Positions 18,829-58,755 of a stretch of DNA of 64,000 bases are shown here, one piece after another; positions within the stretch are counted from its first letter, which is position 1, and every line of letters starts with the position of its first letter. The translations under genes and the position numbers were made by a program. The stretch is from assembly GCF_023115355.1 (NCBI RefSeq), contig NZ_CP096020.1, positions 124,001 to 188,000 of the forward strand, read 5' to 3'. This DNA is from Halocatena salina. GTDB taxonomy: Archaea > Halobacteriota > Halobacteria > Halobacteriales > Haloarculaceae. Below the pieces are notes generated by a model. That model was not told the DNA's origin and made no database searches. It saw only the letters and a list, made by a program, of their open reading frames with translations.

Positions 18829-19065
18829 TCAGCGACTCCCCTCCGATACATCCGTCCAACCCGACTGCACGAGCACGATGGGGATGGTGTGCACCCGACG
18901 GTCTGATCTATTCATTCTACGTCGTTCTACGAGTTGGGGGGCTTATAGATCCGTTCAGAAAACAGTGCACAGCGAGAAACCACTACGTACACGGCGATGG
19001 TATCACACTATGAAAAAATTTCACAGGACGAAAACGCTTTTTCGGATGGACGTCCGACAAACAAC

Positions 19066-19860
19066 ATGAACGCGGTGCTCGAAGAGGTCGAGTTTCTCGC
19101 GCGGTCGGAACACCGCGTCGAGGTGCTTCGATTGCTCGCCGAGGAGAGTCACACCAGAGGGGCCCTTCTGGATGCGACCGATGCATCGGGGGCTACAGTC
19201 AGCCGAATTCTCCACGACTTCGAGGAACGGTCGTGGATCCAGCGGCGAAACGGAACGTACGTCGTGACGGCGGCCGGACGTCTCGTAGCGTGTGGGTTTA
19301 CTGATCTGCTCGATGTGCTAGCGACAGAACGAGAACTGCGGGACGTGGTCGAGTATCTCCCGGTTGAGGAGCTAGCATTCGATCTCCGACAGCTGGCGGA
19401 CGCGACGGTGACGCTCCCAACGGGAACACGGCCGGACGCACCGGTCAGGCGGCTCTTGGAACTGGAACGGGACGCCGATCGGATCCGGGCGTTCTCTCAC
19501 GCGTTCAACGAACGGAGTCTTTCGCTCGTTGCCCAGCGCGTTCATGACGACGAACTCGTGTTCGAGGGTGTCTTTTCGTGGGACGCGATCGCCGCACTGG
19601 CTTCCGATTCCAAACTCCGGGAACAGCTGATGACTCTACTCGACGCTGACCAAGCGACAGTCCGGGTTCGTTCCGGAGAGGTTCCACTCGCCGTGACTAT
19701 CGCTGATGAGACAGTTCATCTGCTCGTTCGCGATGCGAACGGCGTGCTCCAAGCGTCGATCGACACGGATGATCCGGCCGTCCAATCGTGGGCCATCAAC
19801 GCCTTCGATGAGTACTGGGACCGTGGTCGGGATCTCGACTGGACCGATCTCTTCGAGTGA
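19066..19860 (+). CDS. Haloarchaeal winged-helix regulator
   Basis: A 264-aa protein with an N-terminal wHTH (residues 1-75: 'EHRVEVLRLLAEESHTRGAL', 'ATVSRILHDFEERSWIQRRNGTYVVTAAGRLV') and a C-terminal sensor-like domain (residues 120-255: 'RAFSHAFNERSLSLVAQRV', 'LFEGVFSWDAIA' type pattern, 'VRVRSGEVPLAVTIADETVHLLV'). This two-domain layout is the common haloarchaeal 'HTH + DUF1724-like' regulator. The start is ATG 19066; an in-frame ATG at 18997 would add 23 residues. It is divergent from the EamA transporter. Confidence 0.8.
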   Translation: MNAVLEEVEFLARSEHRVEVLRLLAEESHTRGALLDATDASGATVSRILHDFEERSWIQRRNGTYVVTAAGRLVACGFTDLLDVLATERELRDVVEYLPVEELAFDLRQLADATVTLPTGTRPDAPVRRLLELERDADRIRAFSHAFNERSLSLVAQRVHDDELVFEGVFSWDAIAALASDSKLREQLMTLLDADQATVRVRSGEVPLAVTIADETVHLLVRDANGVLQASIDTDDPAVQSWAINAFDEYWDRGRDLDWTDLFE

Positions 19861-20255
19861 GCTGCGGGAAGACGACTCGCTATTATCTATCAACTCGTGT
19901 GTGATAGTTACTGATATTCACTCTCGTTGCTAGCCCGATCGTCGGTCGTGTCATTGTGTTTGAGTCCGATAAAGCTATGTTCGGTGGTGTCTATTTTCCC
20001 TCCGAAGCGTTCTATGATCCGCCGGCTCGTGTGTCGTCCGGTGTTCGTTCCGCTCGTGTCTCCCGCAGCGCGACGGGCCCGATAGCTGCAGCACTCGGGT
20101 TCGTTTCGCTACATTCTGTAGCCGTACTATTCCGACCGAACACACACGTATATGTCGATATTCGCTGAGTCACCGGTGTCTGGCCGGGACTCGTCCGATC
20201 ACGCATCGCTTCGCACACAGCTGTATCGCTCACTGACCATAACCGGTGGTTGCCG
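19861..20255. other. Intergenic, nothing recognised
   Basis: No supported gene. It should contain the promoter of the MFS gene. Confidence 0.4.
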
Positions 20256-21557
20256 ATGACCACTGCCGACACGGCTGGCGGAACGTCTCTGTGGGAGAAC
20301 CGTGATTTCCGTCGGTTTTTCGCTGGACAGTTCGTGACGAACGTCGGGGACAGTCTTTACACCGTCGCTGTCCTGTGGCTCGTCTTCGAGCTCAGCGGTT
20401 CGACCGTTCTCACGGGCATTGCGAACGCGTTGTTGTTGCTTCCGTGGCTGTTGCAGATACTCGCCGGCCCGATCGTGGATCGACTTCCGCTCACACCCGT
20501 TCTGGTGGGATCACAGTTCGCACAAGGTATCGTCGTGCTCGTGCTCCCGATCGCTGGAATGACAGGAAGACTGAGTGTCGATCTCCTGCTGGCGGTCGTC
20601 CCTGTGTTGGCGCTTGCTACACTGTTGATGTCGCCGATGCAGGCGACGCTACTCCCTCGCATTGTCGCCGACCAGCAGCTGTCGCGGGCCAATTCCGCCC
20701 TCGCAACCATCACGCTTGGACTCGATATGGTGTTTGACGCCCTCGGCGGTGCGTTCATCGCCATCTTCGGCACAACGACGTTGTTCTGGTTCGATTCGGT
20801 CACGTTCGCCGTCGCCGGTCTGCTGTTCGGTGGCATCGAGGTGTCCCCTGTCTCCGACGGGAGACAAGCGAGTGAAGCGTCGATTCGGTCGGTGATCGAC
20901 TCATATCTCATCGATTTGCGTGCCGGGATCGACGTGCTTCGCGGGACCGTCTTCGTCGATCTGGTGCTCACGACGGCGGTGTTCAACCTCACAACCGGTG
21001 TAACGCTCGCAATCTTGCCGGCGTTCGGCAACACGCTCGGTGGACCCGCCGTTTACGGGCTGTTGCTCGGTGCGCTCGGCGTCGGTCGGCTCGTTGGATC
21101 ACTCCTTGCACCGTTGCTCGAACGCGTTGCGTACGGCCGGCTGATTCTCGTTGGCTACTCGGTGGCCGCGTGCTGGTGGTTCACCGCGGTGTACGCGCCG
21201 TGGACGGCACTCACCGTTGTCCTGTTCGGACTCGCGTGGGTGCCGGCAGCCATCGATGACGTGCTCACATCGACGCTGAACCAGACCGTGTTTCCAGATG
21301 ATCTCCGCGGACGTGTCTCTGCCATCAAAGGAACGGCATCTGGGGGGACGCTGCCGCTCGGATCGCTCGTCGGTGGCATCGTTGCCGAACTGCTGGGAAC
21401 GAAGACGACGATGGGGTTGGCCGCGCTCGGCCTCGGGTTTACGGGTCTGTACGTCCTTGCCCGCCCACGTCTTCGTCGCCTTCCCGCGGTTGCGGAAGCC
21501 ACCCCGGCGGCGTTCGGCATGACGGAGTCATCTGCTTGCGATCGGGACTCAGCCTGA
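20256..21557 (+). CDS. MFS transporter
   Basis: A 433-aa major facilitator with about twelve helices. The N-terminus 'LWENRDFRRFFAGQFVTNVGDSLY' and the loop 'LPRIVADQQLSRANSALATITLG' are typical of the MFS_3/enterobactin-exporter-like group, as is 'DLRGRVSAIKGTASGGTLPLG' near the C-terminus. It is likely an efflux carrier. The ATG at 20256 is preferred over a TTG two codons upstream. It is monocistronic. Confidence 0.88.
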   Translation: MTTADTAGGTSLWENRDFRRFFAGQFVTNVGDSLYTVAVLWLVFELSGSTVLTGIANALLLLPWLLQILAGPIVDRLPLTPVLVGSQFAQGIVVLVLPIAGMTGRLSVDLLLAVVPVLALATLLMSPMQATLLPRIVADQQLSRANSALATITLGLDMVFDALGGAFIAIFGTTTLFWFDSVTFAVAGLLFGGIEVSPVSDGRQASEASIRSVIDSYLIDLRAGIDVLRGTVFVDLVLTTAVFNLTTGVTLAILPAFGNTLGGPAVYGLLLGALGVGRLVGSLLAPLLERVAYGRLILVGYSVAACWWFTAVYAPWTALTVVLFGLAWVPAAIDDVLTSTLNQTVFPDDLRGRVSAIKGTASGGTLPLGSLVGGIVAELLGTKTTMGLAALGLGFTGLYVLARPRLRRLPAVAEATPAAFGMTESSACDRDSA

Positions 21558-21949
21558 TTTCTGCCGGAGTCTCGATCCGTGCGATGAGATCCCGCCGTTG
21601 ACAGGACAAGCCATTGCAGGGCTCCGTGGATACGGGGCCGCTGTCACGACGGACGTATGCTCTTTCGCAACGTTGTCTCTGGGGATACGATCTCCGAGGT
21701 GGAGGACTTATCGGGGAAGGACACCGTTCGCAGATGAGGATATTATGTTTGTGGGAACGACTGCTTAGGAACTGGCCGACGATCGGTATCACGACGTCGA
21801 CACTCCATGAACATCTCTACGAAGCCGATCGGAAATTATTGTATTTTTACTATATATTTTTAAAAAATTTATGGATATATCTATATATTGAAAACCAAGT
21901 GGTAGTTCTAGCTATGGGTTCCCTATCGTCTGTATCAACTTCTACATTG
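21558..21949. other. Intergenic, AT-rich centre
   Basis: Bases 21830-21900 are strongly AT-rich. No gene is supported between the convergent MFS and methyltransferase genes. Confidence 0.4.
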
Positions 21950-22564
21950 TTACTCGTCCCGTTCGGCGGCGAGGACGCCCACTTGATCGTGCACTCGTTC
22001 AACTGCCGTCATTACGAATCCAGCGTCGGTGAGTTCGTCCACGAGCATCCCGACGGTTGCCCCATCAACTCCATGGCCGAATAGCGGTTCCTCGGGGTTG
22101 GGTGCGCCGAAGAACATCGCGTCTCCGAGGACGAACCGGCGCGGGTCGAGATCGGCGATAGTCTCGATGGCTTCCCGTTTCTCTTCGTCGGGTAGGTGGT
22201 GCAGGGCGAAGTTCGAAACGACGATATCTACTTTGCTGTCGTATTGTGGGTCGCGGAACTCACCGTACCCGATCTCCACATTTTTCATACCCCTGTCAGC
22301 TGCCTTCGCCTGCGCCTTCTCTATCATTCCCTCGCTGATGTCGCGACCGACGACGTGACTAGCGTCCTCAGCGAGCGCGAGAGCGATCAGACCCGTACCT
22401 GTTCCAAGGTCGAGGACCACGTCGTTGGGACGTGGATCGGCGTGTTCTATGACGAGCGAGGCGCACGCATTGTACATCCACTTTTCTTCGCTATCATGTT
22501 TCTCGTCGTAGTGATCGGCCATCTGCGAGAAACGATCGGCGAGTTCCTTGAGTTCCTCGTCCAT
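21950..22564 (-). CDS. Class I SAM-dependent methyltransferase
   Basis: A 204-aa Rossmann-fold methyltransferase. Motif I is 'VVLDLGTGTGLIALALA', motif II/acidic loop 'VGRDISEGMIEKAQAKA', motif IV 'VDIVVSNFALHHLPDEEK'. The N-terminal helix region 'ADRFSQMADHYDEKHDSEEKWMYNA' is typical of small-molecule methyltransferases. The substrate is unknown. Its ATG follows the stop of the upstream hypothetical gene by only a few bases, so the two are probably one transcript. Confidence 0.9.
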   Translation of the reverse strand: MDEELKELADRFSQMADHYDEKHDSEEKWMYNACASLVIEHADPRPNDVVLDLGTGTGLIALALAEDASHVVGRDISEGMIEKAQAKAADRGMKNVEIGYGEFRDPQYDSKVDIVVSNFALHHLPDEEKREAIETIADLDPRRFVLGDAMFFGAPNPEEPLFGHGVDGATVGMLVDELTDAGFVMTAVERVHDQVGVLAAERDE

Positions 22565-22569
22565 TATTA

Positions 22570-22929
22570 TTACTCTATTCGAACGTTTCTCTGGGGGATT
22601 CCGTACCGACCGTTTTGGCCGACTTCCGTCTCGTCGCCGACGGTCGCCGCTATTGAATGAGAAGCGCCGCTTGGGGCATCCTCTGCGGTGAAGAAGTCCT
22701 CAACCGATGTGAGCCCCACACGCTGTGACTGTGTTGTTTCGACCAACCTAGCTTGGTTCACTTGGGAACCGAACTGTTCAGTCGATTCGCCGTGTTGGTT
22801 CATCGGTGGGACGTAGGAGTCGTACACGCTCCGGTGTGAACGCCCCAACTGGAAAGTGGCATTCGATCTGAGCCTGTCGCCGATGATAGGAACATCGAGA
22901 TCCGAATCGCCGTCATCGGTTGTTTGCAT
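22570..22929 (-). CDS. Hypothetical acidic protein upstream of methyltransferase
   Basis: A 119-aa protein of unknown function starting MQTTDDGDSDLDVPIIGDRL (ATG 22929). It has no recognisable domain: it is polar, with 'SHRSVYDSYVPPMNQHGES' and 'SVEDFFTAEDAPSG'. The near-contiguous spacing to the methyltransferase and the acidic composition support a real gene. It could be a methylation target or a small partner, which is pure inference. An upstream in-frame Met at 23061 is unlikely. Confidence 0.45.
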   Translation of the reverse strand: MQTTDDGDSDLDVPIIGDRLRSNATFQLGRSHRSVYDSYVPPMNQHGESTEQFGSQVNQARLVETTQSQRVGLTSVEDFFTAEDAPSGASHSIAATVGDETEVGQNGRYGIPQRNVRIE

Positions 22930-23138
22930 AGGTAATGCAATGAGGATCGAGAGTATAAGAATGTTGTTCTCAGTGACGAGTGCCTCTCGATGATGTAAGA
23001 ATGCTACTGTCTGAGCTGAGCAAGCGTCTAAGAGCTTGGATGATCCTGTATTGGACTTCAATAGTCAGTGCAGAGGTGTGAGAAGTATGTGGTTGAAGTA
23101 CAATCTTTATCCGGAAGCATTACCAAGCACCGATAACA

Positions 23139-23537
23139 ATGCCGGACGCCATACATAAGCAACTCCAAGATGAACGGGAGTGTGAGGGTCTTCTTGCCTG
23201 TATGCTCGGGCTGAATAAACTCGACAAAGGTGTATTTAGATTGTTAGCAACGCATCCTGAGCCGCTTACAGTCGATCAGATTGCGAAATTCATCGATCGG
23301 GAACGGACGACCGCGTACCGTTCAGTCAGACGACTTCAGGAAGCTGGAGTTGCCGTGCAAGACCAGGAAAACTGTCCCAAAGGTGGTTATCACTACGTGT
23401 ATCGAGTCGCTGACCCGGACGAGATTGCAGATGAACTCCAGCGGATGCTCAACGAGTGGTACGCTAATACTGGGCAGCTAATCCAGGAGTTCCGAGATAC
23501 GTATGGCAAGGACCGTTCTCCTGAAACAAATCCGTAG
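23139..23537 (+). CDS. TrmB-like helix-turn-helix regulator
   Basis: A 132-aa protein with a TrmB/MarR-type winged helix: 'LDKGVFRLLATHPEPLTVDQIAKFI', recognition helix 'RERTTAYRSVRRLQEAGVAV', wing 'CPKGGYHYVYRV', and a C-terminal helix 'ELQRMLNEWYANTGQLIQEF' for dimerisation. Three cysteines (two in 'CEGLLACMLGL', one in 'ENCPKGG') could give redox or metal sensitivity, as in some haloarchaeal regulators of this size; that is inference. It is divergent from the hypothetical/methyltransferase pair. Confidence 0.8.
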   Translation: MPDAIHKQLQDERECEGLLACMLGLNKLDKGVFRLLATHPEPLTVDQIAKFIDRERTTAYRSVRRLQEAGVAVQDQENCPKGGYHYVYRVADPDEIADELQRMLNEWYANTGQLIQEFRDTYGKDRSPETNP

Positions 23538-25331
23538 CATCTCGCTTTCGTTATCAGATAGCACGACAAACAGACGGAGTAACGTGGCTGCCGATTGACC
23601 GATGCAGTTGCCGCTGCCCTCGGATTGCGTGAGCACCTGAAGGTACGGGTACGATTTCTGTACTGCCCCTACCGATCTCAGACCCCAAATCGAGACGCTT
23701 GAAGACGGCTACCGGAGTGGCATCCCTCCCGTACTCGTTTCATGGAATGCGCAAACTCTTCTCCGATCTGGAAGTCACCGGGACAGTTAAGGTCCCTTAC
23801 ATCACTCCAAGCTCGCCCTAACGTCTGACCAGACCAAATTCCGGACGTCCCTGTCCGCTCAAAAGGTGGCGTAACCACTTTGACAACGACTGCTTCTATG
23901 AGTGCTCGGACCATCTCATGAAACCCACCAGTGTAGTCCTGTCGCTGCTCTCTAAATATAAATAATATTTCATAATATGGGCTTCGTAACGGGAACAGAA
24001 GAAGATGTATAGAATATAGTATAGGAATATTTATATTTGTTTTCGAGATCCTGCTAGTCAGCGCATGTTCAGATTCCAGTAGTGTATAGTAGAAAACTGG
24101 ACGTGATTCTTGAAGTCGGGGTATCCTCGAATTTCCGAATAAAAGTAGCGAGCTTCCCAAATCTACAGCTTTCGGAGTGTCTGCTTCAACAGCGTCATTG
24201 ATTGAATACTGCGGTCTCTGCCAATGATTCGCTGCCAGCCAAACTTGGGCCGTTCCACCACTGGCATCAGTCCTACACCGCTTACGCTTACTACCCCTAC
24301 TATCGAAGCCACTGACTGCTAGGGACCCCAACCTGTACATCTTGTATATATTATAAATTATATCTAAAAGTACAGTTAGTAATATTAGAAGCGTATGATT
24401 CTGAGATAGCATCTGGTAATCAGCCCGTCCGTTACACTCGTACACTTGTAAAAAACTATAGTTTATTTTATAGGATTGGATTCGCGACTAGCGAACGTTT
24501 GAGGTACGAATACATGAAATCGACCGCAACGATTGGCTGCTAGGGAGATCGTTTCGGATGATTATTCATAATAATATCCTCTCGAGATGCACAGAGCACA
24601 TATCGTCACTAGCGATCGGACAGCGATACACTACGTACTTCGCGCTTTTTCCACCAAACACATATACTCGCTTACAATTCCTTCAAAAACGTTCCGAACA
24701 GTACCTCACACGCTGTATGAGTGCTAACGATGCATTCGTCAATGGAAAATAGAGTTTCAGGTATCTCATTGCTCTTTTGTACGTATCTTGGAAGCATTTT
24801 TAATATATTTCTTCATATATTTATATAATTACTATATTAGATACAAATGGGTGTTATGGACTGATCGATAAGGAGATGTTGCTGCCGGTTTCTACCGGTT
24901 GATCTATCCGTCTATTAAACAAGGCGTTCTCGACATGAGAACAACATTCATCCTGTTCTAATTCGATGCTATATGGAGAAAATGTATCGAACAGTTGAGC
25001 GGTGCAGCTCCCAACTTGATCACCACCAATCATGAAACGGAGCAATGTTACTATGATCGACGAAAGAAGCCTGGTGAAGTTACAGTTCGTGCCATTCAAC
25101 CCGTTCAATACTAGGAGTACATCGTCAACGAGAGTGGCGAGTGCCGGCTGAACTCCCGTATCTCGCTGTAGTGACCAGAACGATCACACGGTTCGCTCTC
25201 TTCCGAGGTAAACAGTAAAATCTAATCTAATACTAATTCAATACTGTATTTATACCTATAAACATATTCCAATAATCCTTTGGAGTTATCATCCGACCGG
25301 CAATCTCTCCTGTTCCTCTGGCAAGGAATTA
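23538..25331. other. Long AT-rich region, no confident gene
   Basis: Mostly AT-rich with islands of higher GC at 23560-23930 and 24050-24330. A 255-codon minus-strand frame (23678-24445) lacks any recognisable domain, has mixed composition and starts in AT-rich DNA; it may include decayed coding sequence. Another minus-strand frame (24854-25108) is equally unconvincing. I could not identify transposase motifs or terminal repeats. Confidence 0.4.
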
Positions 25332-26399
25332 CTACTCCGATGTAACACTGTCGACGACGCCACGGAGGTAGCCGACAGTGAAACTACGTGCCCGGTGTCG
25401 CCAGTCGTCGTCGCCGACCATTTCCGGGACGTGGTCGGGAATGACAACGCCGTCGAACTCGATATCGTGAAGTGTTTGAACGGCTTCAACCGTATCGAAA
25501 TTGCCTTCATCAACGAACGTCTCATGGAACTTCGGAACCGTGCCAACGACGTCACGGAAATGAATGAACACTATCTGATCGCGCTCCCCGAAGCGTCGCA
25601 ACACCTCCGAGACGTCCTCTCCCATCTGAGAGAAACAACCCAGACAGAGCTTCAAACCATGATTTTTGCTTGGAACGAGTTCCATTGCTCGCTCGAAGTT
25701 CTCGACACTGCGGAACAGGCGGGGAATACCGCCCAGCGATTTGATGCCTGGTGGGTCGACGGGGTGAAGTGCGAGCCGAACACCAGCCTCCTCAGCAACG
25801 GGAAGCACATTGTTGAGGAAATACTCGTAGTTCTCCCAAAACTCCGTCTCGGTGTATGCCCGCTCAAGGCCGGGAGCGAGTCGGTCCGTATCATTAAACT
25901 CCTCGATCTCGTCGAGGTCGAAGCCTGTTCCGTCCGCTCCGCCGCGGAGTTCTACCGAATCCGTCCGCATCGGAACCACACCACGGGGGTTCCACTGATA
26001 GCCGAGGATTGGGATCTCTGCTTCACCCAGATTTCGAATAAGAGTCGTGATCTGAGTGAGGGCATCGTCAGCATCCTCGCGGTCGAACATGAGATCGCCA
26101 TACAGCGAGTAGGGAAGGGATTGGATGCCGGTGAACGTCAGTCCTGTATCCTCAATTCGCTCGCGTGCCGCCGTTAGCTCGTCCACCGTTGGAATAGTAT
26201 CACGACCAACCGCGAGCGTGTCAGTTCCATCGCGGTCGTTAAACGCGTCAGGCTCTTCTTCAGTATCCATGTGATCGACGAAAATGTCCGTTGCACCGAG
26301 CTGTCGAATGAATGCCAACCGATCGTCAGAGAGACTCCGAGTTCGCACGCCGATACGTACATCCGCCTCCACAGAATGCTTCGTGGTTTGTTTGACCAT
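25332..26399 (-). CDS. uxuA: Mannonate dehydratase family (UxuA-like) enzyme
   Basis: A 355-aa TIM-barrel enzyme of the UxuA family, which dehydrates D-mannonate to 2-keto-3-deoxygluconate using Mn2+. Marks are the barrel start 'RIGVRTRSLSDDRLAFIRQLG', the metal-site strands 'VRLALHPVDPPG', 'HGLKLCLGCFSQMG', 'IVFIHFRDVVGTVPKFHETFVDEGNFD' and 'GVVIPDHVPEM'. All the conserved His/Cys/Asp clusters appear to be present. It is divergent from the Nramp-like transporter, and the two probably share a regulator (perhaps the IclR at 31790). The substrate could be another aldonic or uronic-derived acid, since haloarchaeal homologs are uncharacterised. Confidence 0.85.
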   Translation of the reverse strand: MVKQTTKHSVEADVRIGVRTRSLSDDRLAFIRQLGATDIFVDHMDTEEEPDAFNDRDGTDTLAVGRDTIPTVDELTAARERIEDTGLTFTGIQSLPYSLYGDLMFDREDADDALTQITTLIRNLGEAEIPILGYQWNPRGVVPMRTDSVELRGGADGTGFDLDEIEEFNDTDRLAPGLERAYTETEFWENYEYFLNNVLPVAEEAGVRLALHPVDPPGIKSLGGIPRLFRSVENFERAMELVPSKNHGLKLCLGCFSQMGEDVSEVLRRFGERDQIVFIHFRDVVGTVPKFHETFVDEGNFDTVEAVQTLHDIEFDGVVIPDHVPEMVGDDDWRHRARSFTVGYLRGVVDSVTSE

Positions 26400-26676
26400 A
26401 TGCCCCTCTTGATCCTAGAGAAGAAAACGGCTACGGTTGTAGTATCACGACCGACTACTGGAGTATAACTAGCGGTTAAGCATCCAGCACCAACTGAATC
26501 CGGGAAACTGTACACATTGAGGATGTGCTCGAAATCCGCCGTCGGTAATTTTCCGGTGTCACTGTACAGTCGAGGTGTCTTGGATGCGTAGATAAATAAC
26601 GAAGAGAGGAAACTGGGAAATCGAATCAATCGTAACTATTATTACTGATCCAATTCTCTATCGATTGGAATCACAT

Positions 26677-28050
26677 ATGAGTGAAAGTCTCAGCCGAAGT
26701 GAAGAGTCCCAACAGTCGGACTCATCGGCTAAAGAATATCGAGAACCGCCGCAAACGTTTGTGGGTATACTAAAGTATTTAGGACCAGCGTTTGCGACGC
26801 TGGCGATCACCATCGGGTCCGGTGAACTGATCGCGACGACGGCCGCGGGTGCCGAAGTCGGGATCGTCGTACTGTGGTTTCTAATTATCAGCCTTTTCGT
26901 CAAGATCGGAATTCAGTACATTATTGCCAAGTATGCAATGATCGAGAACAAGACCCCTCACCAGATCTTCGATGAAATACCGGGCGAGATATTTGGACAC
27001 AGTTGGAGTTACTGGTTCATCGTGATCAAGTGGTTCTTTTCGGACAATATCCAGTACATGGGTGTGTTCTTCGGAGCTGCAGTGCTGCTCCACCACCTGG
27101 TAGGACAGACGATCCCGATCTTCTTTACAACGCTCCTCGTTCTCCTCGGCGTGACGATACCTGCATTGAGAGACTACGATTTCGTTGAGGATTTCTCTAC
27201 GATACTCGTCTTGGTGCTGGTCGCGCTGACGCTCGCTGCGGCGGTGCTCTCGTTTATCTCTCCGTTCAGGCTGTCAGCCGGAGACATCGCGTATGGACTA
27301 TCCTTTACCATCCCTGATAATGGATATTACATCATCTTCGGAACGATCGGGATAACCGGCGTTGGAGCGGGGGAGATCATCGGTTACGTGTTGTTCGTCA
27401 ACGACGCGGGCTACGGCAAACTTGCTGGTCCAAGGGACTCAGATGGATGGAAGGACCGAATGCAGGGATGGCTCCGAGTGCTGAGAGCTGACGTGTTCTT
27501 GAACGTGTTCCTCGCGGCTATCGTCACGGTTTCGTTTTTCATCGTCGGATCATCGATTCTCGCCAACTCGGGATCGTATCCTGATGGGCCTCAACTAGCT
27601 GTCTATCTCGCTGGTGCGTACGAGCAGTTGTTCGGTCCGGTCGGCTACTGGATACTGATCGTCGGTGGATTCTTCGCTCTTTATTCGACCATCTTCGGTA
27701 AACTCAATTTGCTTACCGAGGTATGGCCAGATATCCTGAATCAAACCGAGCGGTGGAATGACCTCGATATGCGGAAAGTTAGTCTGTTCATCGGCGTTGT
27801 TTCGCCGATCATCTGGCTACTGGGTGGCACGATCACCGGCTCGATCACCGGGCTCCTGTTCCTCGGTGGATTCATCAACACGATGGCGCTGTTTCCAGAG
27901 ATCGTCACTGCCATGTGGATCCTGTACAACGACTCCGAGCGAGACCCGATGTTCCAGTTTTCATTGCCAGCCAAGTCTCTCGGCTGGATCTCTCTTATTG
28001 CCACGTTCGGGATGCTCGCAGCCGTGCTTGTGCTCCAGATTCCGGCCTGA
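26677..28050 (+). CDS. Nramp-family-like transporter without metal motifs
   Basis: A 457-aa membrane protein with about eleven helices and an overall Nramp/SLC11-like layout (LeuT fold). Helix 1 reads 'LGPAFATLAITIGSGELIATT', where metal-transporting Nramps have D-P-G-N; helix 6 reads 'FGTIGITGVGAGEIIGYVLF', where they have M-P-H. The two broken helices therefore carry a G-S/A-G-E motif instead. The N-terminal 30 residues are polar. The ATG at 26677 is preferred over a TTG at 26665. Its position beside sugar-acid catabolic enzymes suggests uptake of an organic acid rather than a divalent metal (inference). It is divergent from the UxuA-like gene. Confidence 0.8.
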   Translation: MSESLSRSEESQQSDSSAKEYREPPQTFVGILKYLGPAFATLAITIGSGELIATTAAGAEVGIVVLWFLIISLFVKIGIQYIIAKYAMIENKTPHQIFDEIPGEIFGHSWSYWFIVIKWFFSDNIQYMGVFFGAAVLLHHLVGQTIPIFFTTLLVLLGVTIPALRDYDFVEDFSTILVLVLVALTLAAAVLSFISPFRLSAGDIAYGLSFTIPDNGYYIIFGTIGITGVGAGEIIGYVLFVNDAGYGKLAGPRDSDGWKDRMQGWLRVLRADVFLNVFLAAIVTVSFFIVGSSILANSGSYPDGPQLAVYLAGAYEQLFGPVGYWILIVGGFFALYSTIFGKLNLLTEVWPDILNQTERWNDLDMRKVSLFIGVVSPIIWLLGGTITGSITGLLFLGGFINTMALFPEIVTAMWILYNDSERDPMFQFSLPAKSLGWISLIATFGMLAAVLVLQIPA

Positions 28051-28227
28051 TTAGAGGCTTCGGAACTGTTCGTGCTGGCAAGTAGTGTCGACCCCTTCTA
28101 AAAGCCACGGCGAGATCTAGGCTGTTCGATACTGAACTTTTCCTACGGCAACATCAATGAAGCGCCATTGAGACGGTGCCCACCCGAAGATAGTTTTTTG
28201 ACAGTGTGTATTCAAACTACACTCGCG

Positions 28228-28662
28228 ATGGAAACCATACTGATCGTCGTGACTGGTGAGAAGCCAAATAAGAAGTTGCTAGCAGATGCAAAACGATACG
28301 CAACTGGTATCGAATCGCAGGTAGTCCTCTGTGACATTCGTGAGGAAGGATTCCACCAAAACAGCATCCAGCGGCACAGCAAGGTGGGACGCGAGGCTGA
28401 AGAGATCGACCAGTATGCCGCCGAGACGGCTGCAGCCGAGATCGCTGAGGATGCTTTCGGTGACGAAATCCCGTACGAGGTAGTCGGTGTTCCCACAGAG
28501 AGCGCCAGTACAGTCCTAGAGATCGCCGAGGAATACGGCTGTGACCGCGTCTTCATCGATGCTCGGAAGCGAACGGCGGTAGGAAAGGCTATCTTCGGGG
28601 ACCTCGCACAAACGATAATACTCCAGTTTGACGGACCAGTGACCGTAACAACTGAATCATGA
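28228..28662 (+). CDS. Universal stress protein, single UspA-like domain
   Basis: A 144-aa protein starting METILIVVTGEKPNKKLLADAKRYATG (ATG 28228). It has a Usp-like alpha/beta fold ending 'VFIDARKRTAVGKAIFGDLAQTIILQFDGPVTV', where 'GKAIFGDLAQ' replaces the usual G-S/T loop. Small Usp genes commonly follow transporter genes in haloarchaea, and this one follows the Nramp-like gene in the same direction, 177 bases on. It may modulate the transporter (inference). Confidence 0.8.
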   Translation: METILIVVTGEKPNKKLLADAKRYATGIESQVVLCDIREEGFHQNSIQRHSKVGREAEEIDQYAAETAAAEIAEDAFGDEIPYEVVGVPTESASTVLEIAEEYGCDRVFIDARKRTAVGKAIFGDLAQTIILQFDGPVTVTTES

Positions 28663-28917
28663 AACGCACTCCATCCCGTAATAATACATAGAATACAACT
28701 AACAAAATGATGAAATAAAGTTCCGGATATTCGACGCCAAATCGATCGTCTCGTGTAGCTCAATAACACACAGCATTCCCTGGCTGAACTGTTTCTTAAA
28801 TAAATCATCAGTGAGATGGATAAACTTGGAGTCGATCCATCTCAGTTGTCGGAGATGGCCGATCGCTACACCGGTGGTTGATGCGCCGTTAGTTTTTGTC
28901 TCTATCTTTTATGGAAA

Positions 28918-29856
28918 TCACCTGATGAGACGGTTGATATCATCATCCAACTGTCTATAAAGTTCTTCAGCTTTCGCTTCTTCTTCTGGTGCCAACGGTC
29001 GTATCGGTTCGCGCACGGCTCCGCCGTGAAGGCCAGCGAGCTCAAGCCCTTTCTTAACAGCTGGGACGCTGGCCGCGCCGGGGATAGTGTTGTTCTGTCC
29101 CGTTTCATCTCTTAGATTTTGATATGGAAGGCAGATATCACGGAGAACTCGGGCCTGTTCCCAGTTTTCTGCTGAGAGCGCATCAAACAGTTCCAACCCG
29201 ATCTCAGGACGGAAGTTACTGACACCTGCCGAGAATCCTTCGACACCTTCTGCCCAGTAGGCGACTGCATACGGTTCTGCGAGACCGTCGATCCACACTA
29301 CATCATCAGCACCTGCATTTATACCTGCGCCGAGTTTTACTGGATCCTCCAGTGCATACTTGATTCCAATAACGCTCTCAAGTCTGGTCAGGTCGGCCAG
29401 ATACTTCACCGATGGAGTAAACCCACGAACATACGGGACCAAAGGTGTTTCCGTCACCGAAGCGAGATCACGGTAGTAGTTTAGTAATCCTCGTTCATGG
29501 ATGTACGAATGGTCCGGCGGCATGATCATCATCGCATCGACACCGATCTGGTCATACGCACGAATCAGTGTTTGTGCAGTCGCTGTACTCCCGCCAACAC
29601 CGGCAAGGACACACGCATCCGATGGGAGCGCGTCGACGCTTGACTCTGTCACAGCGATGCGCTCGTCCTGCGACAGAGAGTGATATTCGCTGATGTTGGC
29701 AGACGCCAGAAACGTCCGTATTCCTTCTTTGTAATGAGTTTGTGCGTTTTCCTCGATTTTCCAGTGCTCGATGTCTCGGTTCTCGTCGAATGGCGTAAGA
29801 AGACCGACAGCAACGCCACGGAGGCGCTCCTTGATCTGCTCGGCTACTAATGGCAT
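28918..29856 (-). CDS. DapA-family dehydratase/aldolase (KDG-type)
   Basis: A 312-aa class I aldolase-fold enzyme (dihydrodipicolinate synthase/N-acetylneuraminate lyase superfamily). From ATG 29856 (MPLVAEQIKERLRG) the Schiff-base lysine is Lys166 in 'VIGIKYALEDP' and the general-acid tyrosine is Tyr142 in 'LVPYVRG'. It resembles 5-dehydro-4-deoxyglucarate dehydratases and 2-keto-3-deoxy sugar-acid lyases more than biosynthetic DapA. Next to an aldehyde dehydrogenase of 2-oxoglutarate-semialdehyde type, a dehydratase/decarboxylase role giving 2-oxoglutarate semialdehyde is likely. ALDH and IclR genes follow upstream on the same strand. Confidence 0.82.
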   Translation of the reverse strand: MPLVAEQIKERLRGVAVGLLTPFDENRDIEHWKIEENAQTHYKEGIRTFLASANISEYHSLSQDERIAVTESSVDALPSDACVLAGVGGSTATAQTLIRAYDQIGVDAMMIMPPDHSYIHERGLLNYYRDLASVTETPLVPYVRGFTPSVKYLADLTRLESVIGIKYALEDPVKLGAGINAGADDVVWIDGLAEPYAVAYWAEGVEGFSAGVSNFRPEIGLELFDALSAENWEQARVLRDICLPYQNLRDETGQNNTIPGAASVPAVKKGLELAGLHGGAVREPIRPLAPEEEAKAEELYRQLDDDINRLIR

Positions 29857-30120
29857 CACGATAGATCTGGTTGCCAAGTTTAATAAACCTATCGTCCATG
29901 AAGAGATGTAGAATAAATTTTACTTCGTTTGAAACCGGGCTGTCGGTATCGCATGCTGTTTTCCTGTATTTACGACGTGAGTAGGATCGAAACTGTCGTT
30001 TGACTCAACAGGAAGCCACAACATCGACCTTCAGTTACTTGCTTTCTGCTGATTGCCTTGCCGGATGGATAGTACCGTTATCCAGCCCTGGAAATACTGA
30101 TGGGACGGTTGCTCGCTATT

Positions 30121-31572
30121 TCAGTAGTTGCGGTAGATCGTTTTCGTGGTAGTAAAGAAATCGAGTCCGGCGTCGCCCTGTTCTCTATAGGTGTTTGTTG
30201 AGGAGTTCTTGAAGCCGCCGAAAGGAACGTGCAGCTCTAGTCCAGTCGTCTTTTCGTTGACCTTGGCGACACCTGCTTCGATACGGTCGACGAACTCGTC
30301 GGCTTCGGTCAGGTCCTGGGTAACGATACTCGCTGCGAGCCCATATTCGACGTCATTGGCCAGAGCAAGCGCTTCTTCGAAGTTACTGGCCTTGATGACG
30401 GACAACACTGGACCGAAGATTTCCTCTTGAGCGATCTGCATGTCGTTATCCACATCAGAGAAAACTGCTGGGGATACGTAGTAGCCGTTCGCGTACTCGG
30501 GATCGGTAAGTCGCTGTCCACCAGTTTCTAGGGTTGCACCCTCGTCCTGGCCGATTTCGACGTATTCGAGCGTGGATTCGAGCTCACTGTTCGAGACGTG
30601 GGGTCCCATATCGGGATCGTTGCGTCCTGGACCAATGTCCATACTGTTGGCATACTCAACCATTGCGTTGACGAACTCGTCGTACACCTGTTCGTGAACG
30701 ATCGCGCGAGAGGCGGCGGTACAGGACTGGCCGGTCGTACCGAACGCTCCAACACCCAGGGTTTCAACAGCCTCGTCGATGTCGGCACTCGGCATGACGA
30801 CAGTCGGGTTCTTGCCGCCCATCTCACACTGGACGCGCTTGAGACCCTCCGTGGCAGTTCGGGCGACGGTTATCCCAACAGCGGTACTGCCGGTAAACGA
30901 GACACCATCGATCATCTCGTGTTCGGTCAGTGGTTTTCCGACGTCGCTCCCAGAGCCAGTTACGACGTTTACAACACCAGCGGGCAAGCCGGCTTCATCA
31001 AGACACTCAACGAGGATTCGTGTTACATTGGGTGCAGCCGATGCTGGTTTCACGACCACTGTGTTGCCAGTAACCAGCGCAGGGGCAAGCTTCCAAGCAG
31101 GGATTGCGATAGGGTAGTTCCAGGGTGTGATCAGTCCGACCGTCCCGAGCGGTTCACGTTTGGTGTATATCTCTTTTTTGGGACTGCTTGGCGATTTCAC
31201 CACGCCGCCGAGGTCGCGGGCTTTCTGTGCATAGTAGGCGAAGATATCGATCGCACGCTGGACCTCACCAGCGGCTTCCGATTGCGTTTTCCCTTCTTCT
31301 CGGACGAGCATCGTGGTTGTCTCCTTCTTACGCTCTTCGAGAAGTCGGCCTGCTTGCTTCAGGATCGCACCCCGTTCTGGTCCCGGTGTGGTAGCCCATT
31401 CGTCTTGGGCAGCGACAGCGGCCTCGATCGCCGCTTCGGCATCGGTTGTCGTCGAATCCTGATATCGTCCGACCACTTCGTCTGTGTCTGACGGATTTAG
31501 CACGTCGAACGTCTCGCCAGATTCAGAATCGACCCACGTTCCGTTGATATAGTTACCATAGGTTGTTGGCAT
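30121..31572 (-). CDS. NAD(P)-dependent aldehyde dehydrogenase (2-oxoglutarate semialdehyde type)
   Basis: A 483-aa ALDH. Cofactor segment 'TPWNYPIAIPAWKLAPAL', general base Glu250 in 'QCEMGGKNP', catalytic Cys284 in 'TTGQSCTAASR', and the ending 'VPFGGFKNSSTNTYREQG'. The N-terminus 'YGNYINGTWVDSESGETFDV' resembles the haloarchaeal alpha-ketoglutarate semialdehyde dehydrogenases of oxidative pentose and sugar-acid degradation. It should oxidise the semialdehyde made by the DapA-family enzyme to 2-oxoglutarate. It lies between the DapA-family gene and IclR, all on the minus strand, but spacing of 260 and 217 bases suggests separate promoters. Confidence 0.9.
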   Translation of the reverse strand: MPTTYGNYINGTWVDSESGETFDVLNPSDTDEVVGRYQDSTTTDAEAAIEAAVAAQDEWATTPGPERGAILKQAGRLLEERKKETTTMLVREEGKTQSEAAGEVQRAIDIFAYYAQKARDLGGVVKSPSSPKKEIYTKREPLGTVGLITPWNYPIAIPAWKLAPALVTGNTVVVKPASAAPNVTRILVECLDEAGLPAGVVNVVTGSGSDVGKPLTEHEMIDGVSFTGSTAVGITVARTATEGLKRVQCEMGGKNPTVVMPSADIDEAVETLGVGAFGTTGQSCTAASRAIVHEQVYDEFVNAMVEYANSMDIGPGRNDPDMGPHVSNSELESTLEYVEIGQDEGATLETGGQRLTDPEYANGYYVSPAVFSDVDNDMQIAQEEIFGPVLSVIKASNFEEALALANDVEYGLAASIVTQDLTEADEFVDRIEAGVAKVNEKTTGLELHVPFGGFKNSSTNTYREQGDAGLDFFTTTKTIYRNY

Positions 31573-31789
31573 CCTTGTGGATGTTCTCGATTCTCGTTTA
31601 CTAATGTTTTGGTGGGGTCGGTACGGTGGTTGCCCTTCGATTTAAGGAAGCGCTACAACGGTCGTTCTCGATACGTCTGGATATGCGAAAACTGTGGAGT
31701 TGTCTCCGATGTTGCTGTCCAAGCGCCGAGTCGCGAGATCTGAGTGCCACCACAGCGGTCTAATACATTCTTCAGAAGGTGATAACGTC

Positions 31790-32554
31790 TTACGAATACA
31801 TCGAATTGACCTCAATGACGTTAGCTGCCTGTGCTATTACCCCACTGAGATCGTTCTCGATTCGCTCGTCTGTCATTCGCTGTGACGGTCCTGAGATACT
31901 GAGTGCCCCCAACACATCAGTGTCAGGAGCGGCAATAGCCATCCCGATACAGCGTACCCCGGGAATGTTTTCCTCGTCGTCGATAGCGTAGCCCCGCTGT
32001 CGTGTTTTCGCTAATTCTTCATGTAGATCATCAGCGTGTGTGATCGTTGCCTCGGTCCGTTTGGGTAGGCCGTGTCGCTCGATAATTTGTTCGACCTGTT
32101 CTGGCGACAGCTCAGCTAATATCGCTTTGCCAAGTGATGTTGAGTGCATCGGCATTCGTTTTCCGATACTCGAAACAGTTTCCACGGCAGCATCTCCACG
32201 GGCTTTAGAAATGTAGACGACCTGCCCCGCTTCTTCAGCGCCGAAATGGACGAGTTCACCGGTATCGACAGCAAGACTGTTGACCTCGTCCTCGACGATG
32301 TCGTGCTTTGCCACTTCGTTTTTCACGTATTCAGCGATATCAAGAAATCGGAGGCTCAGACTGTACGTGTACCCGTTTTTCACGACGAGACCTTCCTCCT
32401 TTAGTGTGGCTAGATGTCCATGTACGGCACTCTTCGAAAAATCAAGATCTTCTGATATTTCTGTAACGCCAGCTCCTCCCCGCTCTCGAAGCACATTTAT
32501 AATCCGACATGTGTTCTGAACAGCTTCAATTTTTCTCGGGGTGTTCGTTGGCAT
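31790..32554 (-). CDS. IclR family transcriptional regulator
   Basis: A 254-aa IclR protein. The wHTH is at residues 10-65 ('NTCRIINVLRERGGAGVTEI', 'SKSAVHGHLATLKEEGLVVKNG') and the effector domain at 75-250, with 'MPMHSTSLGKAILAELSPEQ' and 'GIAIDDEENIPGV'-type loop 'GYAIDDEENIPGVRCIGMAI'. IclR regulators typically sense the substrate or an intermediate of the pathway they control. Position at the end of the sugar-acid cluster makes it the probable regulator of the ALDH, DapA-like, UxuA-like and transporter genes. Confidence 0.92.
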   Translation of the reverse strand: MPTNTPRKIEAVQNTCRIINVLRERGGAGVTEISEDLDFSKSAVHGHLATLKEEGLVVKNGYTYSLSLRFLDIAEYVKNEVAKHDIVEDEVNSLAVDTGELVHFGAEEAGQVVYISKARGDAAVETVSSIGKRMPMHSTSLGKAILAELSPEQVEQIIERHGLPKRTEATITHADDLHEELAKTRQRGYAIDDEENIPGVRCIGMAIAAPDTDVLGALSISGPSQRMTDERIENDLSGVIAQAANVIEVNSMYS

Positions 32555-34272
32555 GTACGAGCCGATGAGACGCAGAGTAAAAACTCTTGTTCCCCTCTTG
32601 AGAACGTTCTTTTATCGGGACTGTCCACAGGGGAGTATGGTTAGTAACGGTTCGACGCGCTTTTAGAGCAGAATGAATACCTCTATTGTTCTTCTCTCTC
32701 GAATCCGCTGTGACAGGTTATGAAAGGCACATTATCAGCACATTCGTGTATCGCGTCGTAAATGAGCGTTTCTCTGATCGCCGGTTCGTTCCATTTGTTA
32801 CTTACACCTGAAATAGGGCTCGCTAAGGACTACAGTGTTGCTATCGTCATACTATGGGACGAGTAATAAGCTACGATCGATGGTTACATCCGTACTATTG
32901 TAATAGATATCTATGACAACTGTCTATCGTACTCTGTTCACTCGTAGATAACAGATGAATACTACGAAAACAGGGACCGCACCCACGAAGTATTCGCAGC
33001 TAACTGGTTCTCACATCCAAGTCGAAGCGGTTGCACTGTCGGTTGGACGAGGAGATTATGGACGACGGAGGTCTGTCGCTGTCGTCGTCTCTGTGTTCGA
33101 CCACTGCGACAACGACCGGACAGTCAATGAACCGTTACGACAGTACGCTTGTAATAGGAGGATACACCAACATCACAGTGTAACGAGTGTGTTACAGATC
33201 TAGCTCATTTGGGTATGCTATCTCCGAACTATTCAATCACACGCATCATGGCTCTAGAACAAACATCTCATTACTCATACCGACGCTGCATCTAGTGGAG
33301 AGCAACTGTCGACGAGTCAGGTTGGAGTCTAATTTGGCTAGCGATTCATCCTCGATTCATACTTGGTTCTCCAGTAACGATAAATACCTACCGATCATGT
33401 TGAAATACAACAAATAGTTTGATTATGTCTCTTTATATGGAAATATAATTATTAGAATTAGAAATAATCACTCGATTACTTTGTAGGTGATAGACATCTA
33501 TCAACATTCATATTAAGGACTGTCACCACGTACGTCTCATAGGTAACGTAGAGCCTGACAACCTGCGCTTATCGATAATCACCGGAATGAATCTCACTGG
33601 ATGGTATCAGTCTACGACACCTGCACTCGAACGATGGAATGTAGCTAGTGATCGATGTGGGTATTTCGGAATGATCATCACTGTATTCTACTAAATGTCT
33701 ATTCCTATACGAGTGGTTATTTCTAATGTTATATAAATTATGGTATAGATATTGAAACGCGCTAGCGCCAAATGCTTTGTCCGTCGCATAGAACATGGTG
33801 GCCATAAAACGTGAGCATACATCGGCTAGCTGCCTACGATGCCGAAGAACGGCGATATCCTTCCGTATCCCAATAAATTTCTATTATCACATAGATATTT
33901 CGTGTAGAATGATGCAGAGAGCGTCATCGCTACCTCATCTCTTTCGAAATGATTTATGAATCGTATGGTGTATAGATATCCTCGGAGTCAGAGGCCGATT
34001 AGATGATAGCTCTCTTATTGACACACTCAATTCGTCCTTCCACAGCTCTGGTGGCTTAGCAGACTGTCATTCTCTGACTGCCGTCCTCAAGAGCACCGCT
34101 ATCGGGTATCTGGACCGAACTGGGTGTCGAGAAGCGTGGAGAACACGTCCTAGTCGTGAGTACTTTTGAATAGCTTGATCGTCTACCGATGATTACTGGT
34201 AAACACGTTGCTGCTGCTCCCTCCGTCGTTTCTTGAACGGCAGTCTCGAAGTATTATCTTCGAGAGAGGTGC
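32555..34272. other. Long AT-rich intergenic region
   Basis: About 1.7 kb without a credible gene. Base composition is mixed to AT-rich, with only short frames lacking recognisable domains. It separates the sugar-acid cluster from the integrase element and may contain decayed DNA at the island border. Confidence 0.45.
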
Positions 34273-35583
34273 TTATGCTGGATCTCCCTCGAACGCATCA
34301 GAGAGTCGTTCGCGCATATACTGTCGGCGGAGGTGGCGCCGGCGTGTTGGGGAGAGATAGTCTTGGAGTACCACTTCAGCACTCGCACTTCCCTGTTCTG
34401 CGGCGATGTCACTCACGTCAGAGAGGATCGCCTCCTGGGTTGCTGAATAGGCGTCATACCAGAATCGTCGGCCCATCTGTGGAATTGGTTTTTTGCCCTC
34501 GATCGTCTCTGGAAGACCAGCTTGGTCAGCGAGTGTATCGAACCACGAGAGGATCGTCTGGCGGGTTCGATGGCCCGAGCCAGCTCGATCCGAGGGAAAC
34601 AGATATCCGTTCCATCGGTCGCGCTCGCTGAGTTCTGCCACTCGATCTGACGCAACTTCACGGCCGTAGAGGATCGAGACCTGACCGGGACCGTTTTTGC
34701 GCTCCTCGAAGGCGACATACGGCACCTCGGTTTCCGGCGGATCAAGTACGAGCTGGGATCGATGGAGTGCAGCCACCTCTCCCGATCGGAGGCCCCACGC
34801 ACAGAGCGCCACGACGAGGAGGCGCTCGGTTGATGTCTGGGCGTGCTCGTAGAGCGCGCGGACGTGAGACGCGTCGAGCGCTGGATTTACCCGGTCACCG
34901 GACGCGTTGTCACTGCGGCGACTCCACCGATATTCGTCGTCGAGTCCGGAGACGGGGTTGACCGCAGCCCGTTTGCGGCGCACCAAATGCGCGTACCAGT
35001 CGTCAACGGCCTCGTGGAGCCGGCGCATCGTTCGAGGCGCGAGCTCGGCGTCAAGTGTATCGAACGCTTCCCATGCGGCATCGGTCGCCTCGTACGCTGG
35101 GACATCACTGTCGCGGGCGACCGGTGTGAGCAGGTCCTCGGTATCGTTAACCGAACAGTAGGTCTGCACATATCTGCCGAGTCGATACCGGAACGTGTTG
35201 GCGGATGACTGACTTAAATCGCCCCGTTCGGCCCGGCTGTCGATGTATGCTTCGAGCAGTTCGACTGTCTGGTCATGGCTTGTTCCCCAGTCGAAGCCCG
35301 CGTCACGTTCGGTGAGATCGAGGTCCTCGGCCCAGAACTCCCCGAACGTCCGATCGTGGTGCTCGCGCAGCGCATAGATCAGTCCACGAAAGCCGTTGGC
35401 AGACAACCACTCGTGGGTTGGGCGCTCAGTGTCAGGATCGAGCCCATATTCGCGCATTGCCGGAGCGACGTGTTCCCAGTACACATCGACGAGCTCGCCA
35501 CGATCGAGCAGCGTCCACCGGATCTCATCGGGTACCTGGTCGTGCTGTTCTACTGGTTCGGTTGGTCCGTCGGTGGTGGTCAT
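34273..35583 (-). CDS. Tyrosine recombinase/integrase
   Basis: A 436-aa site-specific recombinase (start MTTTDGPTEP, ATG 35583). It has an N-terminal core-binding region (about 100-210) and a catalytic domain with Arg266 in 'CAWGLRSGEVAAL', Lys296 in 'FEERKNGPG', a second-Arg box 'PIPQMGRRFWYDAY' without the usual His, and nucleophile Tyr409 in 'VVLQDYLSPTRRRHLRRQ'. It would integrate or excise the surrounding element. In-frame codons upstream to 35709 look non-coding. A deleted copy of the same gene lies at 52696-53030 in the same orientation. Confidence 0.88.
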   Translation of the reverse strand: MTTTDGPTEPVEQHDQVPDEIRWTLLDRGELVDVYWEHVAPAMREYGLDPDTERPTHEWLSANGFRGLIYALREHHDRTFGEFWAEDLDLTERDAGFDWGTSHDQTVELLEAYIDSRAERGDLSQSSANTFRYRLGRYVQTYCSVNDTEDLLTPVARDSDVPAYEATDAAWEAFDTLDAELAPRTMRRLHEAVDDWYAHLVRRKRAAVNPVSGLDDEYRWSRRSDNASGDRVNPALDASHVRALYEHAQTSTERLLVVALCAWGLRSGEVAALHRSQLVLDPPETEVPYVAFEERKNGPGQVSILYGREVASDRVAELSERDRWNGYLFPSDRAGSGHRTRQTILSWFDTLADQAGLPETIEGKKPIPQMGRRFWYDAYSATQEAILSDVSDIAAEQGSASAEVVLQDYLSPTRRRHLRRQYMRERLSDAFEGDPA

Positions 35584-35764
35584 GTAATGAGGTCGGAATG
35601 AAGTCGAACCTATCGACGACTTCGATCTGCTCTGGAAAACCGTTTTCCCTGACGGCTCTAGCAGTGCCGGCCCCCGCGTCGGTGTCGGTGACGAATCTGA
35701 TCGAGACACGGATCGCGGGCTCGCATCTCACAACGACATCCAGAGCGAATGGAGAACGGCAATA

Positions 35765-36179
35765 TCAAATGCAGATTGGGGGGAGTTCGAGCGCTGCCAC
35801 TCGTTCGGTCATACCTTTGATGTCGGGAATAGCATACGTGAGTGCGGCTGCAACTTTCCCACCCCCGTGTTTTTCGCCGAGGAGCCCAAGGTCACGATCG
35901 TGAGGAAGCCTCCCGACCGCCTTGATGAGAACCGGTGTGATCATGTACTCAGCGCCGTTGAGTGTTGTGGTGAGTTGGAGAGCGTGCGGTGTATGTGTTT
36001 TCTGTGAGTCGTCCCAGTGAGCGCCCCACGATCGACGAGCACTCGTACATCGGCATACGCTGTCGGGAGAGATCGAGATCGTCACCGATCTGGTCGATCG
36101 TGACGGTCCCAGCATGGAGAACGCACGCGTATAGGCAGACGGGGATGGTTGCGCCAGTTGAGCTACCAGGATATCCCAT
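35765..36179 (-). pseudogene. Frameshifted regulator-like gene
   Basis: Two overlapping minus-strand frames join into one plausible protein. The first (from about 36179, MGYPGSSTGATIP) contains an HTH-like stretch 'TVTIDQIGDDLDLSRQR' and runs to 'GRLTENTYTA'. The second, from about 36000, continues 'LQLTTTLNGAEYMITPVLIK' and 'GLLGEKHGGGKVAAALTYA' to a stop at 35765. A frameshift near 36000 explains this. I do not recognise the family. It sits inside integrase element A and may have been its regulator. Confidence 0.5.
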
Positions 36180-58739: not shown

Positions 58740-58755
58740 TAGTAAGAGTGATACC

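Follow-up and report, generated by a model that had tools for sequence, protein, structure and literature searches.

A Nramp-fold protein with replaced metal-site motifs, encoded in a sugar-acid gene cluster of Halocatena salina, is a probable organic-acid carrier

The carrier gene and its cluster

The window analysed here, a stretch of 64,000 nucleotides from the haloarchaeon Halocatena salina, contains a cluster of genes resembling a sugar-acid pathway, in which one gene encodes a protein of the Nramp superfamily (Table 1). Its reading frame, proposed originally from the DNA alone, is open throughout and evidently real: two genomes from a different haloarchaeal family carry an orthologue with 81% identity, and the NCBIfam profile Nramp_1, named Nramp family divalent metal transporter, matches with 76.9 bits, above its curated threshold of 50. 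No other genome among the 292 sampled from the class has the orthologue, for a total of 3/292. By sequence the carrier is a marginal family member, since PF01566 reaches only 37 bits in a profile search of the genome (cut-off 29.8) and hmmscan of the protein against Pfam reports no match. Searches with the single protein returned only chance matches among PDB sequences and no relative in the genome contigs; a profile of 80 sequences retrieved Nramps from the PDB, and an alignment-based scan of the contigs did find relatives. The Nramp fold itself is borne out by structure prediction and fold comparison: the AlphaFold model (pLDDT 88, pTM 0.88) has a predicted LeuT-like Nramp fold over the whole chain, and its best solved match, above all other folds, is DraNramp with a Z-score of 36.6 over 387 residues, followed by other Nramps, EleNRMT (34.3) and YcsG (34.2); the first non-Nramp folds, amino-acid carriers such as SLC7A10 (28.4), come below these.

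The neighbouring genes are as originally described, the carrier gene being divergent from a gene of the mannonate dehydratase family (UxuA-like), at a distance of 277 bp, and lying near further sugar-acid genes, namely the KdgD-like gene and the 2,5-dioxovalerate dehydrogenase gene downstream. In the two genomes of the other haloarchaeal family (G250 and G256), Usp likewise adjoins the carrier, with UxuA-like, KdgD-like and IclR genes within a few kb; these clusters add Ldh_2, and the one in G250 also an enolase-superfamily protein. Beside the carrier in the relatives L125 and L126, the UxuA-like orthologues are 81-83% and Usp is 65% identical to those of the window; the KdgD-like orthologue of G250 and G256 is 68% identical, and KdgD-like and IclR orthologues are found in other related clusters as well. 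A scan of positions 19000-36000 with Rfam for a metal riboswitch yielded no riboswitch. Elsewhere in the window, a 478-residue ORF at 34273-35709 (minus strand) resembles a tyrosine recombinase, with no Pfam match at 0.001, and possibly marks the border of a mobile element near the cluster; a second organic-acid uptake cluster, at 57726-63465, consists of a TctC tripartite tricarboxylate receptor followed by a FAD-binding protein and further ORFs.

Table 1. Genes and sites of the carrier locus (positions within the window)
Feature	Position	Strand	Basis
GSGE-family Nramp-fold carrier, 457 residues, ATG to stop	26677-28050	+	ORF reading, profile scores, fold prediction, alignment
TM1 motif G47-S48-G49-E50, replacing D-P-G-N	26815-26826	+	Direct reading; aligned with DPGN of solved Nramps
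TM2 Lys76, invariant in the GSGE family, co-occurring with acid or His at position 50	26902-26904	+	Alignment
TM6 motif G228-V-G-A-G-E233, over Nramp M-P-H	27358-27375	+	Direct reading; alignment
UxuA/xylose-isomerase-like TIM-barrel protein (mannonate dehydratase family), divergent from the carrier	25332-26399	-	Profile matches
Universal stress protein (Usp), directly 3' of the carrier	28228-28662	+	Profile match
DHDPS-family protein nearest 5-dehydro-4-deoxyglucarate dehydratase (KdgD-like)	28918-29877	-	144 bits, below curated cut-off 278
2,5-dioxovalerate (alpha-ketoglutarate semialdehyde) dehydrogenase	30121-31572	-	NF052305, 837 bits, cut-off 750
IclR-family regulator, nearest BhcR/KdgR-type profiles	31790-32554	-	Profile matches, below their cut-offs
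MFS protein, possible outlying cluster member	20250-21557	+	47-48% identical MFS near the carrier in L125 and L126

Replacement of the metal-site motifs

In an alignment between a profile of 80 family members and the solved Nramps, gap-free at these sites, the DPGN of TM1 falls over G47-S48-G49-E50 and the Met-Pro-His of TM6 over G232-E233-I234; every position whose side chain is a canonical metal ligand is thus altered in the carrier, which has GSGE and G-E-I in place of the DPGN and MPH of canonical Nramp/MntH/SLC11 proteins, and the loss of both metal-binding motifs claimed in the original prediction is confirmed, with GVGAGE in the TM6 segment. The accompanying claim that both helices carry the same replacement holds in part: GSGE and E233 occur in 80/80 rows, but the TM6 motif of the family is usually GVGxDE, and within it only G228, E233 and Y237 are fixed. 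The residues invariant in all 80 rows are GSGE, Lys76, Gln80, Gln126, Tyr167, Gly228, Glu233 and Tyr237; for the TM1 and TM6 motifs this invariance is partly built in, because the scan patterns held one or the other of them, whereas position 76 lies outside the patterns and the invariance of Lys76, Gln126 and Tyr167 is independent of them.

Absence of DPGN is by itself no rarity. The motif is missing from all five PF01566 proteins of the H. salina genome, which therefore seems to be without a canonical Nramp; the four members other than the carrier show IGPGT, AGPAT, IGSGT and FGAGS. Non-DPGN 'Nramp-related' proteins are a published and mostly uncharacterised group (PMC12873925, PMC9606685).

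The GSGE family, as defined here, combines GSGE, a lysine in TM2, GxGxxE and grouping with bacterial GSGE members within one half of PF01566 (the charge-pair half, see below), and the carrier shows all of these. It is mainly bacterial and rare in haloarchaea: the 80 loci from the alignment-based scan belong to Bacteroidota, Verrucomicrobiota, Planctomycetota, Acidobacteriota, Actinomycetota, Synergistota and Pseudomonas, with relatives at about 30% identity on plasmids of Rubrobacter, Streptomyces, Roseomonas, Skermanella and Microscilla. GSGE genes are infrequent in two bacterial classes as well (1/229 in the class of Pseudomonas, 3/297 in that of Glycomyces).

The TM1-TM2 charge pair and the two halves of PF01566

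The acid or histidine in position 50 (Asp/Glu/His) and the base in position 76 (Lys/Arg) occur together or not at all, with few exceptions. In a comparison set of 129 PF01566 members, 65 have both residues, 60 neither, four the acid alone and none the base alone; 60 of the members were chosen irrespective of motif, mostly among the PF01566 hits of three phyla, and in the 59 scorable rows of this motif-blind sample the corresponding counts are 11, 45, 3 and 0 (Fisher p 1.3e-9, a value that is too small because the sequences are related). On a tree built without columns 50 and 76, the charge pair requires three changes, one being the split itself and the others two single departures within its half, in one of which (L181) both residues are lost. 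In a careful tree computed from 70 rows, the split between the halves has support 98/96, and the carrier is placed with support 100/98 in a set of 14 rows that all have the charge pair and include the GSGE family; this family falls within one half in two trees, and the carrier's own branch is long (1.7-1.8). The opposite half holds the DPGN Nramps, NRMT-type proteins (DDPSG/NDAGG), GPGT proteins and the homologues of YcsG/PxpT (GPGF), which were recognised by their adjacency to pxpA. To our knowledge, every PF01566 member studied experimentally (Mn/Fe Nramps, Mg NRMT, YcsG/PxpT) belongs to this half without the charge pair. Nramp-related groups besides the NRMT-like and the YcsG-containing one are described as entirely uncharacterised in a preprint (PMC12873925).

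In the model, positions 50 (helix 36-61, TM1) and 76 (helix 64-90, TM2) are about equally distant from the TM1-TM2 turn, which makes a contact between them geometrically plausible; together, the covariation and the geometry of this hairpin suggest that Glu50 may touch Lys76. The charge pair provides a simple sequence marker that separates the two halves. Loci L171 to L174 and L192 form another group of Nramp-related proteins, in which TM1 reads DIGD/DMGS, TM6 reads TPYE/SPY and TM2 has no base; the passages of the literature consulted contain no description of it.

Transporter replacement in orthologous clusters

UxuA-like orthologues with 72-80% identity to that of the window occur in about 20 haloarchaeal genomes without the carrier, and the 20 such loci that were read contain no Nramp-family gene. 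In three of the genomes (L256, L258, L259) the genes run DctP-DctQ-DctM-Usp-UxuA-IclR and adjoin the same dehydrogenase, with an intact TRAP transporter; UxuA is here 77-79% and Usp 46-49% identical to the proteins of the window, as against 33-37% for the full-length Usps of other loci. Another locus (L272) has TRAP genes in a different order (the components in L256 and L272 are confirmed by Pfam), three have carbohydrate-type ABC components (L255, L270, L273), and one retains a TRAP remnant (L261). In this last, on contig G271:C3, a DDE transposase gene interrupts a copy of the TRAP-type cluster, of which fragments of DctM and of the KdgD-like gene remain.

Usp thus accompanies a transporter of either type, Nramp-fold or TRAP. 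Since TRAP occupies the same slot beside Usp and the UxuA-like gene, the Nramp-fold carrier presumably has the same role, the import of an organic acid; the simplest reading of the gene orders is that both would import the organic acid of the pathway. This exchange is the strongest single argument for organic-acid import.

Neighbourhoods of the bacterial relatives

Genes for OtnK, PdxA-type proteins or 2-hydroxyacid dehydrogenases are found near the GSGE gene in Streptomyces (two), Pseudomonas (two), Glycomyces, Brevibacterium and Pseudoclavibacter; OtnK is a DUF1537-type four-carbon acid sugar kinase, indicating a threonate/erythronate context, and four-carbon sugar-acid genes thus adjoin GSGE relatives in two bacterial phyla. 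The Rubrobacter locus has UxaA, enolase-family and lactate genes (an altronate/hydroxyacid context), two Acidobacteriota have Ldh_2, and Microscilla has GH43. Neighbours of sugar-acid type are absent from the GSGE loci of Frigoribacterium, most Bacteroidota, Verrucomicrobiota and Planctomycetota; in most Bacteroidota the gene stands beside unrelated ones, for example rpL20/IF3 or LptFG, so that the substrate may differ there, or the carrier may be a general one. A Pfam tally over 146 genes neighbouring the GSGE set is headed by Bacteroidota housekeeping genes, and is therefore not taken as evidence of a functional enrichment across the family.

An independent comparison covered 20 loci of the charge-pair half from outside the first sample and 19 of the other half. 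Matches to sugar-acid enzyme seeds were found at 4/20 versus 0/19 loci (p 0.11), which is not significant alone; some of the seeds were taken from GSGE clusters, and L224, among the four positive loci, shares its cluster with L103, the two not being independent because two Brevibacterium paralogues flank one OtnK/PdxA cluster. DtxR/MntR neighbours were found at 0/20 versus 5/19 loci (p 0.02). The homologues are therefore not mainly neighbours of metal regulators: no true DtxR/MntR is present among all 1371 genes searched from neighbourhoods of the charge-pair half, whereas the control half has iron-dependent repressors, FeoA, Zip and MgtE_N beside it, as expected.

Several loci are arranged in ways of their own. 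On the Rubrobacter plasmid (L036), as in Brevibacterium (L103/L224), a single acid-catabolic cluster lies between two distinct Nramp-related paralogues, the second of which adjoins LutB/LutC in Rubrobacter; on a Mesobacillus plasmid (L127), a charge-pair Nramp (GTAD) ends a row of IclR, CoA-transferase A/B and thiolase genes. On pNG700 of Haloarcula marismortui, a Nramp-related gene of the GPGT type is directly followed by hydantoinase/oxoprolinase A and B, which suggests a further branch with organic substrates outside the charge-pair half.

Proposed function and mechanism

The H. salina protein is most likely a secondary carrier of the Nramp superfamily, with a LeuT fold, that takes up a sugar acid, or a hydroxycarboxylate related to one, for the pathway encoded beside it. 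The original prediction, of a SLC11-related branch moving an organic anion instead of Mn/Fe, is supported in its direction by the TRAP transporter in the same slot, the catabolic genes that accompany the carrier in each of two haloarchaeal families, the four-carbon sugar-acid neighbours in two phyla and the absence of metal regulators; it is qualified by most Bacteroidota, whose context is uninformative, and by the loss of DPGN in many branches, some of them carrying metal (NRMT Mg, YcsG Mn as claimed). The imported acid would pass through a UxuA-like and/or enolase-family dehydratase, a KdgD-like step and 2,5-dioxovalerate dehydrogenase to 2-oxoglutarate, under the control of IclR.

LeuT/APC carriers bind the substrate carboxylate through the backbone amides of an unwound G-x-G in TM1, and the GLGN of LeuT sits where Nramps have DPGN. 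By analogy, the unwound G-S-G of the carrier may offer its backbone amides to a carboxylate, where Nramps use Asp-x-x-Asn to bind the metal. Glu50, if paired with Lys76 of TM2, would not be a free metal ligand, and the pairing would leave the site ready for a carboxylate; Glu233 in TM6 may serve the coupling to H+ or Na+.

Two acids in the site, Glu50 and Glu233, could suit a cation, counter to the organic-acid reading, and UxuA-type enzymes need Mn2+, so that metal supply could also account for the adjacency of carrier and UxuA. A divergent importer of Mn2+ or Mg2+, providing the metal on which the pathway's dehydratases depend (Mn2+ for the UxuA type, Mg2+ for the enolase family), would agree with the Nramp fold and with the NCBI annotation of the family as divalent metal transporter, but is unlikely: all canonical ligands are lost, Glu50 co-occurs with a lysine, orthologous clusters carry TRAP in its place and not a metal importer, no metal regulator adjoins the charge-pair half, and the known metal carriers lie across the deep split. 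They include two without DPGN, EleNRMT for Mg and, as claimed, YcsG for Mn (PMC12873925, PMC10448178), which speak for metal import. Transport of a metal-hydroxyacid complex, or of a different kind of organic solute (amino-acid-like, or a keto acid, for instance) in place of a sugar acid, is similarly improbable; the nearest folds after the Nramps are amino-acid carriers and the wider half has mixed neighbourhoods, with CoA transferase/thiolase (L127), gamma-glutamyltranspeptidase, DAO and sulfatases, but the GSGE loci with informative context repeatedly indicate sugar acids or hydroxyacids, and the cluster of the window resembles a sugar-acid pathway. The rarity of the gene in haloarchaea and its long branch might suggest a sensor that does not transport, or a gene in decay without present function; this is hardly credible given a frame 81% conserved between two families, the retention of all family-invariant residues and a slot in which one transporter is swapped for another.

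Sugar-acid import by the H. salina carrier fits into a wider picture that is offered tentatively, and with some doubt: PF01566 may consist of two deep halves, one of metal carriers together with PxpT, the other, marked by the charge pair, of carriers for organic acids (sugar acids and hydroxyacids) labelled 'divalent metal transporter' by NCBI, with the H. salina gene as a haloarchaeal member where its relatives keep TRAP. The database labels of the GSGE branch as manganese/iron transporters are probably wrong. If the picture is true, the Nramp fold would be an organic-acid carrier in a large part of the family, with a bearing on its role before metal binding and on the origin of DPGN; the haloarchaeal and threonate-type operons supply named candidate substrates.

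Comparison with known systems

With the canonical Nramp/SLC11/MntH proteins (TCDB 2.A.55; DraNramp, ScaDMT, NRAMP1) the carrier shares the predicted LeuT fold, matched over its whole length; they have DPGN, MPH and an alanine in TM2 where it has GSGE, GxGxxE and Lys76, and it is without a neighbour of MntR type. The Mg transporter EleNRMT resembles it in having a Nramp fold without DPGN; NRMT-like proteins have the motifs xDxxG and GTTxxP, which the carrier does not, and belong to the other half, where the control sample includes MgtE_N neighbours.

PxpT of Corynebacterium glutamicum and YcsG of Bacillus subtilis share with the carrier both the Nramp fold and the setting in an organic-acid catabolic operon. 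PxpT (TCDB 2.A.55) is needed for growth on 5-oxoproline, a genetic precedent from 2026 (PMC13274462, which also cites a 5-oxoproline phenotype for YcsG); YcsG has been reported as a Mn importer as well (PMC10448178). The carrier was rejected as an orthologue of PxpT, since in two pxpA-adjacent homologues (L136, L137) TM1 reads GPGF, TM2 carries Asp and TM6 reads GGTVGGY, and both fall on the opposite side of the split. Genomes of Pseudomonas flavescens, Pseudoclavibacter terrae and Brevibacterium hold genes of both the GSGE and the PxpT/YcsG type.

The 'orphan' outgroup of Nramps and the Nramp-related 'G-motif' groups (PMC9606685, PMC10606218, PMC12873925) are of the same category as the GSGE family, PF01566 members without the metal and proton-pathway residues. 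Non-DPGN Nramp relatives and organic-anion transport by a Nramp-family protein (PxpT) are thus already known; the link between GSGE proteins and sugar acids, the exchange with TRAP and the charge-pair marker splitting the superfamily are new within the searchable literature, which (subscription papers lying outside its scope) holds no link of acid sugars with the Nramp family and, for DUF1537, no mention of Nramp. The TRAP (DctPQM) and carbohydrate ABC transporters, finally, take the same slot as the carrier beside the Usp and UxuA-like orthologues; they are unrelated proteins that work with binding proteins, whereas the carrier is a single subunit.
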